Shown in pieces: positions 28,809-32,184 of a DNA stretch of 64,000 nt (position 1 is its first letter; each line of letters begins with the position of its first letter). The position numbers and the translations under genes were made by a program. Below the pieces are notes generated by a model. The model did not search any database. It was given only the letters and a program-made list of their open reading frames with translations, and was not told the DNA's origin. This DNA comes from Kosmotoga olearia TBF 19.5.1 (GTDB taxonomy: Bacteria > Thermotogota > Thermotogae > Petrotogales > Kosmotogaceae), in assembly GCF_000023325.1 (NCBI RefSeq), contig NC_012785.1:2108001-2172000 (forward strand), in the 5' to 3' direction.

Positions 28809-28831
28809 TTCGACAAAGAGTGGTGACGGTT

Positions 28832-30199
28832 GTGATCAATAGAAAAACCGAAAAAGCTTTTATTCAGAAGAAGATGAATTCAAAAAAGGCAGAACTTTTG
28901 GTTTTATATGGTAGAAGGCGGGTTGGGAAGACCTACCTTCTTGAGAATTCTTTCGATTCCCCTCTTTTCTTCACAGCAGATCTTTCCAGCCCCAGGCAGC
29001 TTATGAATAATTTTATGGATCCTTTAAGGGAAATCCTCAATCTCCCGGATAGTTTGAGAATTTCCAACTGGGATGAGTTTTTTCAGTTTCTTGCTAATGC
29101 AGTAAGAACCTTGAAAACCAAACAAGCAATCATCTTTGACGAGTTTCAATATATCTCCCAGAAAGACGATTCCTTTCTCTCTATATTTCAATGATGGTGG
29201 GATAAAGAATTTTCAAAACTACCGGTAGTTATTGTTCTATGTGGTTCATATGTTGGAATGATTGAAAAGATAGCCCTCTCTGTAAATAGTCCAATCTATG
29301 GGAGAAGAACAGGACAGTACTTGGTGTCTCCCATGAATTTCTTTGATGCTTCTTTGTTTCTCGAAAAGATGGATATTGAAAGCAGGATCAAAACGTATTC
29401 AGTCTCAGGTGGAATTCCTCTTTATTTAAATGAGTTTAGTGATTATTCTAATTTCTCCAAGGCGTTAAAAGAAAAGGTTCTTAGCGCTGGTGAATTTTTG
29501 TTGGAAGAGGGAAGGTTCTTAACTCTCGAAGAATTTTCAAGGGACCCAGCTACATATTTCGATATTCTCAAGGCAGTTGCAAACGGACGAACTAAGCCAA
29601 AAGAGATTTCTGATTTAACTGAAATACCTTACAAAGGACTAGGTACTTACCTCGCAAAATTGTTGGATTTGAAGTTGTTAAGGAAAGAATTTCCATTTTC
29701 TTTGAAAAAACCCCGAAGGACACCACTTTATTTTATCGATGATGGATACCTAAGATTTTATTTCAAATTTCTGTATCCTCACAAAGAACTTATTTACCGG
29801 GGAAGAAGCGACTACTTAATGAAAATAATATCGAAAGCGCTTCCACAGTTTGTTTCCTTCACTTTTGAAAAAATCGCAAAGCAGTATCTGGAAAAAATAG
29901 TTAAACCTGAAAAGATAGGAAGATGGTGGCGAAAAGACGAAGAAATAGATATCGTAGCCACCTGTGGGAATACTTTAGTAGTTTGCGAGGTTAAATGGAC
30001 TAACAAGCCTGTTGGAAGCAGTGTATTGGACAACCTTCAAAGAAAAGCGGGATTACTTCAGGAAGACATAGGGAAGAATTTTGAAAAGGTGATCTATTAT
30101 CTTTTCTCGAAATCTGGATTCGTTGGCATAAAATCACTGGATAATTTGGTTCTGGTAGATCTTGGGGGTATTGATTCGAGACCAGAGAAACAAGACTAA
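28832..30199 (+). pseudogene. Third AAA ATPase (DUF234 type), interrupted by an in-frame TGA
   Basis: One continuous frame of ~455 codons is broken only by TGA at 29192-29194. Before it are the P-loop (Y-G-R-R-R-V-G-K-T-Y) and Walker B (I-I-F-D-E-F-Q-Y). After it, in the same frame, come W-W-D-K, the V-L-C-G-S-Y sensor strand and the nuclease-like D-I-V-A ... C-E-V-K-W. The paralogue at 26605 reads S-V-F-Q-M-V-W-D where this reads S-I-F-Q-stop-W-W-D, so one substitution (for example CGA to TGA) explains it. The GTG at 28832 matches the paralogue start. A restart at 29258 would lack the ATP site. Confidence 0.75.
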
Positions 30200-30286
30200 A
30201 GACTCGAGAGGGCTCTTTACAGTTGATACGCGCCTTTGGCGGAATAGGATCCGAGAACGGAGATTCGAGAGGCTATGATTTATAGA

Positions 30287-30306
30287 TCCTGAATCAAGTT
30301 CAGGAT
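30287..30306. repeat. Dispersed palindromic repeat, second copy
   Basis: Reads ATCCTGAA, then TTCAGGAT after a short spacer. TGAATCAAGTTCAGGAT (30290-30306) is the exact reverse complement of 28539-28555, so the two copies bracket the broken ATPase gene in opposite orientation. Confidence 0.6.
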
Positions 30307-30358: not shown

Positions 30359-30502
30359 TGACGTTGGGAGCGACTGCGTCACTGATATAAAGAACAGTTC
30401 ACAGCATTACAACAGCAGTACCTTGCCACATACCGCTATTTTCAAAAAGCATGTAAAGAACAAGATTCTGGATTAAAGATTTCCAGAATGACAGTCTTTT
30501 TC

Positions 30503-30600
30503 AACCACGAAGGGGTTCGAGACAACCACGAAGTGGTTCGGAACAACTCCGAAGGAGTTCGTTACAATCCCGAAGGGATTCGTATCTGTTGCGAAGCAAC
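30503..30600. repeat. Array of five mini-hairpins at exact 21-bp period with GAA loops and covarying stems
   Basis: Units start at 30503, 30524, 30545, 30566 and 30587. Each is a 6-base arm, GAA, and the complementary 6-base arm, then a 6-base linker starting CG. Arms: AACCAC/GGGGTT (one mismatch), AACCAC/GTGGTT, AACTCC/GGAGTT, AATCCC/GGGATT, and GTTGC/GCAAC (5 bp). Stems change on both sides together while the C-GAA-G loop stays, so pairing, not sequence, is kept. The GCGAAGC mini-hairpin is known to be unusually stable in DNA. Not CRISPR: no spacers. Confidence 0.85.
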
Positions 30601-30669
30601 TTTCTCGGCTCTCACCTACTATGTCAAGTCAAGGAGACAGACTCTCGGATTCTGGTGTTCTTATCTTGT

Positions 30670-32184
30670 TTACCCTCGCGTTTTTCTCCCGATCAAAAAC
30701 TTCATGAATCCTTCGAGCTCTTTCACTCCTAATAGCTTCGCCAAAAGCATGAAGATTGCTGTACCTGCCACTATTTCGATTAAGCTGGAGAGAGTGGAGA
30801 AAGGCAGAAGAGCTTTCAGAAGCACCAGCACAAAAACCATTCCAGATGTGCAAATGGCAATTTTAAGTGTTTCCCTGATGTAGCCGCTTTCGTAGCCTAT
30901 TTTTTTGAATATCCCAAACGAGACGATCATCGCTCCAAGTATTCCCGCGATGGTTGTTGCCCAAGCGATTCCCACAGGTCCTATAGTAAGCCCCAGGATG
31001 ATATCCAGCAGGATATTTGTACCCGCCATTATCATTGCTACTATTGAAGGAAATCTGGGATTTTTCCTTGCGTAGTGAGCCCTCGAAAAAATGCCGAAGA
31101 TACCGTAAAAGGGCATTCCAACAGCATAAGCTCTCAAGATTCGTGAGGTGTTCAGGGTATCCTCGAAGGTGAATTTCCCTCTCTGGAATAGAAGGGCAAC
31201 AATTTCTTTTGAAAGGATCATCAAGCCGATTGTTGCCGGGATAACAAAGAACATCAGGGTTCCGAAGGCTTCCCACAGGATCTTTTTAAAATCTTCCCGT
31301 TCGTTGTCTCCCGCGAACTTCGAAAGTTCTGCTAGAGAGACAGTTGCCACAGCTACCGCGAACATTCCCAAAGGAAGTTGGTAAAGCCTCATAGCATATT
31401 GGAGGCTTGATACCGCTCCACTTCCCAGTTCTGTTGCTACTCTCGTGTCAACCAGCGAATTGAGCTGGGTGATTGCAGGAGAAATCATGGCGATCAGAAA
31501 CATTAAACTGAATTCTCTGGCGCTTTCTTTATCGAACGTTAATGTGAACCTGAATCCTCTCTTCGAAGAAGCGATTATCAATACCGTAAGTTGAGCTACA
31601 CCACCAATAATGAAGCCAATCGTTGGTCCCAGGATTGGAGGGTTGAGATATCTGGATAGAACGATTCCTGTAATGGTAGAAATATTTATAAATGCAGGGG
31701 ACAGAGCGGCAATGAAATAAAAGTTGAGACTGTTCAGTATCCCGTAAAAAACGCTCCAGGTTGAAATCAACAAGACAAAGGGAAAAGTGATTTTCATGAG
31801 CTTTGCTGTGAGTTCGATTACCTCGGGCTCGAATCCTCCGGCAAAAGTAACGGATATAGGTTCCGAGAAAAAAATCCCAATGAGAGAGATTGCCCCGGTA
31901 ATGGAAACGACCAGAATCAGAATAGTGGAAGCAAATTTAAAGGCCTCTACTAAAGACTTTTTTTTCTTTTCAGCGAAAAGCGGAACAAACACCATTGAGA
32001 GAGCACCTTCGGCGAAGATTTTCCTGAGAAAAAAAGGTATTAAAATCGCCACGAGATAGGCATCATATTGGCTGGAGGTGCCAAAGTAACCCGCAAAAAA
32101 GGCGTCGCGGAGTAATCCAGTGATTCTTGAAATCATGGTGGCAAGTGCAAATGCCAGCGTTCCTTTTATTATACTTTGATTCAT
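30670..32184 (-). CDS. murJ: Lipid II flippase MurJ (MviN)
   Basis: Moves lipid II across the inner membrane for peptidoglycan synthesis. 504 residues with about 14 hydrophobic segments; the N-terminus has the MurJ signature S-R-I-T-G-L-L-R-D-A-F-F-A and D-A-Y-L-V-A. The ATG is preceded by GGAGGAAGT. A single-gene unit divergent from the DUF296 gene. Its 3' end borders the repeat-rich region. Confidence 0.93.
   Translation of the reverse strand: MNQSIIKGTLAFALATMISRITGLLRDAFFAGYFGTSSQYDAYLVAILIPFFLRKIFAEGALSMVFVPLFAEKKKKSLVEAFKFASTILILVVSITGAISLIGIFFSEPISVTFAGGFEPEVIELTAKLMKITFPFVLLISTWSVFYGILNSLNFYFIAALSPAFINISTITGIVLSRYLNPPILGPTIGFIIGGVAQLTVLIIASSKRGFRFTLTFDKESAREFSLMFLIAMISPAITQLNSLVDTRVATELGSGAVSSLQYAMRLYQLPLGMFAVAVATVSLAELSKFAGDNEREDFKKILWEAFGTLMFFVIPATIGLMILSKEIVALLFQRGKFTFEDTLNTSRILRAYAVGMPFYGIFGIFSRAHYARKNPRFPSIVAMIMAGTNILLDIILGLTIGPVGIAWATTIAGILGAMIVSFGIFKKIGYESGYIRETLKIAICTSGMVFVLVLLKALLPFSTLSSLIEIVAGTAIFMLLAKLLGVKELEGFMKFLIGRKTRG

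Follow-up and report, generated by a model that had tools for sequence, protein, structure and literature searches.

The window analysed here, a 64,000-nucleotide stretch of the Kosmotoga olearia TBF 19.5.1 genome, carries an array of five hairpin units (30502–30606) between a DUF234-type ATPase gene, which reads toward the array and ends at 30199, and murJ on the opposite strand, which ends at 30670. The ATPase is represented by two ORFs (28820–29194 and 29258–30199) and is likely a pseudogene or a frameshift. Sequence reading, TRF (30502–30584, period 21) and a triloop scan of the window place the unit starts exactly every 21 bp (Table 1), confirming the five hairpins of the preliminary description, whose list of arms lacked the mismatched pair of unit 1 (AACCAC/GGGGTT). 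The single mismatch in that unit is A.G, and units 2–5 pair perfectly over 6, 6, 6 and 5 bp. All five carry a C-GAA-G loop; across both strands of the full 64 kb, six C-GAA-G hairpins have at least 5 bp, four of them in-phase members of the array. The position of unit 5 is occupied in other array copies by GCYGC-GNA-GCRGC. The CGTC/TGTC-tagged palindrome module beside the array also precedes many other arrays, and the CGTC REP class has been reported for K. olearia (PMC3733652). In two relatives, the 3' flank of murJ lacks an array.

Table 1. Hairpin units and REP-like palindromes in the window, given as window positions, and group II intron copies, given as positions in the K. olearia genome.
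Feature	Position	Strand	Sequence or remark
CGTC-3-type REP-like palindrome	30286–30306	-	ATCCTGAA-CTTGA-TTCAGGAT; CTTGA loop family
CGTC/TGTC-tagged REP-like palindrome	30465–30493	-	TGTC ATTCTGGA ... TCCAGAAT; directly upstream of the array
Unit 1	30502–30522 (hairpin 30503–30517)	+	C AACCAC-GAA-GGGGTT CGAGA; one mismatch
Unit 2, type B	30523–30543 (hairpin 30524–30538)	+	AACCAC-GAA-GTGGTT
Unit 3, type C	30544–30564 (hairpin 30545–30559)	+	AACTCC-GAA-GGAGTT
Unit 4, type E	30565–30585 (hairpin 30566–30580)	+	AATCCC-GAA-GGGATT
Unit 5, terminal type	30586–30606 (hairpin 30588–30600)	+	GTTGC-GAA-GCAAC; 5 bp
Group II intron	89944	+	
Group II intron	159720	-	
Group II intron	219644	-	
Group II intron	548825	-	
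Group II intron	1109548	+	
Group II intron	1320274	+	
Group II intron	1392957	+	
Group II intron	1405367	+	
Group II intron	1414380	+	
Group II intron	1526448	+	
Group II intron	1886214	+	

BLAST of the window array against its own genome (2,302,126 bp) returned 23 places. The exact unit pattern CAAYNNCGNAGNNRTTCG matched 234 times there, against three matches for a reversed control, and three CGNAG motifs at 21-bp spacing occurred 99 times, against none in the control. The pattern is far beyond chance, and the earlier suggestion of a new repeat family is upheld. Approximately 274 kb around the matches was read, yielding 339 in-phase units and 105 arrays with at least two units; with extra arrays at five further loci, the total of at least 110 arrays is a lower bound, and it disposes of the concern that the window array might be unique. 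Reverse-strand matches past 1.405 Mb were completed only through a search with the type C unit. We consider it likely that the window array belongs, as one copy, to a family of non-coding palindromic repeats that are dispersed between the genes of Kosmotogaceae, each organized as an ordered train of mini-hairpins. Searches of the open literature found no description of such arrays, and the array had no match indicating plasmid or viral origin.

Each unit follows the layout C-[6 nt]-NNA-[6 nt complement]-CGNNN, so that a 6-bp stem, a C-GNA-G triloop and a 6-nt linker add up to 21 bp. The GAA loop, described at first as fixed, is constant in the window, but genome-wide it widens to GNA/NNA: the phased units carry GAA (191), GCA (67), GTA (31), AAA (28), ACA (11) and GGA (7), with a GNA loop in 296/339 and a C-G closing pair in 304/339. 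More than ten stem types, each with its complement, were distinguished (AACTCC, AATCCC, AACCAC, AACTGC, ACCGGC, AACTCT, AACTCA, ACTGGC, AACCGC, ATCGAC and rarer ones), and they differ from one another by compensatory changes. Other units had partly been selected for pairing; to answer that bias, 130 units were chosen solely by their in-phase neighbours on both sides, and these were Watson-Crick paired in 763 of 780 pair cells. Among 66 distinct units, pairing was 95.5%, both sides varied at all six pairs, and covariation reached 0.725, compared with 0.203 in shuffled and 0.012–0.122 in slid controls, bearing out the proposal that pairing is what is kept. Mispaired cells showed no preference between G.T (20) and A.C (15). 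In sampled stretches, triloop hairpins numbered 1046 versus 154 after shuffling, whereas 2- and 4-nt loops stayed near background and the sole strong excess among 5-nt loops was the CGTC-3 REP loop.

Arrays hold up to ~8 mini-hairpins, all units of one array running head to tail, and the order of unit types is near-strict (F-A-B-C-C'-D-E-terminal, with units omitted; reversed orders are rare). The earlier claim that the arms change together stands as regards compensation, but the differences within an array reflect conserved unit types recurring in the same order elsewhere rather than random drift. The order is kept in a Mesotoga copy (B-C-D-E-terminal) and in a putative K. pacifica copy (A-C-D-E-terminal). 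Arrays with unrelated stems (CACTCC-CCTGAC-CCCAGC-CACGC and, in relatives, CGTGAC, CATTCC, CTTTAC and CTGAGC) retain the GNA loop and 20–21 bp spacing.

The recommended search of the genome and of other Kosmotogaceae found exact units concentrated in K. olearia (234), with 12 in genome G006, which we take to be K. arenicorallina-like, three in G002, presumably K. pacifica, and 0–3 in Mesotoga-like genomes. The first two relatives also contain further 21-bp GNA-loop arrays with other stems; at L143, L146 and L149 these are CGTGAC, CTGGGT, CATTCC, CTTTAC and CTGAGC with the linker GCATAGC, stems outside the main family of K. olearia. A second array type (L178, L181, L141, L138) has stems CACTCC, CCTGAC, CCCAGC/CCCGGC, CACGC and GCCGC, 20–21 bp spacing and GNA loops. 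Three Mesotoga-like genomes (G003, G007, G009; L005, L006, L007) share one array at an orthologous place, with unit order kept and putative AbiE-type genes as neighbours. A pattern scan of GTDB gave four stretches: two, in Acidimicrobiales and Treponema MAGs, resemble coding sequence or other repeats, and the remaining pair come from contigs similar to K. olearia that had been binned in other MAGs. MAG contigs near-identical to one K. olearia locus sit in different Thermotogota bins (L029, L031; G042, G004) and are probably misbinned K. olearia-like DNA. In the Treponema MAG G103 there are numerous further repeats that have a 21-bp period and palindromic cores.

By an ORF-based heuristic for gene context (ORFs of at least 90 aa), all 105 multi-unit arrays lie between ORFs. 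The gaps of the 101 arrays with ORFs on both sides are convergent in 33 cases, divergent in 17 and tandem in 51; in tandem gaps the array strand matches the genes 24 times and opposes them 27 times. Array strand did not vary consistently with GC skew or position in a way that would indicate a replication-strand bias (40 strand runs versus 36 expected). At L039 (191–1450, minus strand), the N-terminal part of a radical SAM ORF is read from an array, which probably reflects a false upstream start. One orthologous locus was compared across three strains. Its flanks are nearly identical, but the strains diverge over ~130 bp, in one loop base, in a linker and in the terminal module, where a compensatory hairpin change is seen: GCCAC-GCA-GTGGC is swapped for a hairpin run that is 40 nt longer and ends in GCCGC-ACA-GCGGC. 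The replacement module matches versions at 2103 kb and 98.9 kb, as expected of ectopic conversion, a process able to bring in paired changes a block at a time. Another possible route to such changes is templated correction of quasi-palindromes.

Several arrays stop abruptly at GTGTGCCCGGCATGAC, the 5' end of a group II intron present in 11 copies in the genome (Table 1). The intron was recognized by RF02001 (~100 bits, in the four copies scanned), RF00029 and the reverse transcriptase family PF00078, and its reverse transcriptase/maturase scored 421 bits against TIGR04416 (cut-off 300). Some copies are ~2.0 kb long with the reverse transcriptase, others 0.63–0.77 kb without an ORF; the encoded 467-aa frame had no endonuclease domain among its NCBIfam matches, and Pfam covered its N-terminal 214 aa. 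The inserted intron is probably of class C type. In 11/11 copies the intron starts 6–7 nt past a 5–6 bp array-type hairpin, compared with 3.6% at random window positions, and in 10/11 it is oriented on the strand with the TNC-type loop. The flanks of the ten introns with a recognized 3' end were joined in silico: six had intact hairpins on both sides, the distance between loop centres being 21 nt in five of them and 20 nt in the sixth, and the remainder had degenerate partner hairpins or other sequence. Wherever both hairpins are intact, taking out the intron brings back the 21-nt phase; judged from these junctions, the array hairpin fold is evidently read in vivo. Class C introns require a DNA hairpin, most often a terminator or attC, beside short IBS sequences (PMC4424553, PMC3898094), and the mechanism by which they recognize DNA stem-loops was called as yet unknown in a review (PMC3898094). 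The same intron start was absent from 16/16 other family genomes searched, which have few or no arrays. An IS3-like element (HTH and rve ORFs; L089 1594–3017, ~1316441–1317863 in the K. olearia genome) lies inside the A-B linker of an array with a putative GAGAC target duplication, and ends of its type adjoin arrays elsewhere.

The form under selection appears to be DNA rather than RNA. In DNA, C(GNA)G loops that contain a sheared G.A pair have exceptional stability, and the earlier idea of GCGAAGC-type DNA hairpins spaced at two helical turns is supported. In the early promoters of phage N4, a C:G closing pair and the loop bases G and A are needed for extrusion of a short hairpin at physiological supercoiling (PMC4496689). 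These N4-type bases occur in 87–90% of array units, and together with the independence from gene direction and the lack of a wobble excess they favour DNA; DNA folding tables lack a GNA-loop bonus and are uninformative here, so the stability argument rests on the literature. The competing proposal, which takes up the RNA element of the preliminary description, is that arrays are transcribed within 3' UTRs or by read-through and work as successive RNA hairpins (a stabilizer, terminator or processing site). Conserved pairing and the relative avoidance of divergent, promoter-bearing gaps would fit it, as would the terminator-like unit 4, the one weak match to an intrinsic terminator among the five window hairpins in a loose scan. 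That hairpin has no proper T tract, however, and the family as a whole lacks one, its linkers being CGTAT, CGTAA and CGTGT, so intrinsic terminators were rejected; a search of Rfam for a known RNA family gave no match, G.U-type intermediates were not preferred (a count that is in itself uninformative), and the plus-strand folding z-score was -1.2 as RNA versus -2.8 as DNA. With array strand also independent of gene strand, we regard an RNA element as unlikely.

Three further readings were considered. Phased hairpins might serve the host as binding sites for gyrase, for a junction-binding protein or for an architectural protein, or might absorb torsion where genes converge. REPs and BIMEs have known host roles, which this proposal mirrors, and the exact 21-bp phase recurs even in arrays with unrelated stems, while convergent gaps are in excess; the copy number, however, collapses in close relatives, unlike a conserved host function, and we judge such a role somewhat unlikely. 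Quite unlikely is a REP-RAYT type element, moved in trans on single-stranded DNA by the genome's Y1 transposases. There are two of these (PF01797; NF047646 below cut-off), and the stop codon of one is directly followed by an array; a Mesotoga array adjoins a transposase C-terminal fragment. Yet the second copy has no adjacent array, both are flanked by GGGGACAG-type sequences of their own, like TIRYTs (PMC3733652), and no transposase could be tied to the arrays; the GTAG tag is missing, replichore strand bias is not clear, and some relatives have the transposase without arrays. The two proteins (L033 1177–1905 and L034 1177–1887) have a basic C-terminus rich in G, R and P. A coding heptad repeat, in which 21 bp would be seven codons of an open frame N-x-E-x-V-R, is exceedingly improbable. 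Frame +1 is free of stops in 75/82 arrays of at least three units, but the consensus AAY NNC GNA GNN RTT CGN NNC cannot contain a stop, so the open frame is automatic and is no evidence of coding. Moreover, the free loop base changes the residue (E/A/V/G/K/T), the arms change as complementary pairs, spacings shift the frame in 4/82 arrays, and the ORF over the window array had no Pfam match, which together turn aside the coding interpretation against which the preliminary description had guarded. CRISPR does not fit the arrays either.

Most likely, the arrays are REP-like DNA, for the most part selfish or structural, to the use of which a class C intron and an IS have become specialized. Their hairpins would function at the DNA level, either extruded by supercoiling or formed where single strands are exposed, and with a spacing of two helix turns all of them would lie on one helix face. 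Copies may have spread most simply by block duplication and gene conversion, or through a trans-acting enzyme, although neither a target-site duplication nor a clean single insertion of a lone array came to light, and the arrays would provide a landing platform for the group IIC intron and an IS. More tentatively, and as a possibility that we do not favour outright, an array may be a train of extrudable GNA mini-hairpins, arranged in a set order and in helical phase, in which selection acts on DNA fold and face, not on sequence, giving a structural address read by the group IIC intron and perhaps by a host factor.

By their defining tags and arrangement, the arrays are neither GTAG REPs/REPINs nor CGTC REPs, although they appear to work like REPs, as dispersed extragenic palindromes that are targets of other elements. 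With REP/BIME/REPIN systems and their RAYTs they share high copy number, composite arrays and targeting by mobile elements. They differ in having no terminal GTAG tag (CGNNNC linkers flank the units), a direct instead of inverted arrangement, more than ten stem types in fixed order, and no linked RAYT, since only one of the two Y1 genes adjoins an array, and on one side only. CGTC REPs (CGTC-3 in K. olearia and Mesotoga prima; Di Nocera 2013, PMC3733652) are likewise small, many-copy intergenic palindromes without a dedicated transposase, and they directly adjoin the arrays. They have a CGTC/TGTC/CCTC tag, 8–9 bp stems and 4–5 nt loops and occur mostly as singles or dimers (PMC3733652), in contrast to the 6-bp stems, GNA triloops and head-to-tail 21 bp trains described here, in which TGTC is merely one of many linkers. 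As at the terminators and integron attC sites targeted by class C introns, the intron lies a few nt past a DNA stem-loop (PMC4424553, PMC3898094), but its targets here are a dispersed repeat family of phased 6-bp triloop hairpins and neither intrinsic terminators nor attC. The promoter hairpins of the phage N4 virion RNA polymerase resemble the units in their short stem, C:G closing pair and three-base G..A loop, extrudable at physiological supercoiling (PMC4496689); they are single hairpins rather than trains, and no N4-type polymerase or promoter function was found for the arrays.

The arrays add a REP-like family whose order grammar, 21-bp phase and GNA loops differ from the described super-families. 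Provided that the hairpins do form on the chromosome in living cells, the extrusion of DNA hairpins in a thermophilic bacterium could be studied at more than 100 natural sites that covary with one another, and the arrays would supply a natural collection of targets for learning how class C group II introns recognize DNA stem-loops. Arrays also occur within larger repeats: at 97.5–99.1 kb of the K. olearia genome (L035 1150–2700), a tandem composite repeat of ~475 bp is present in three copies, each with an A-B-C array and other palindromes.
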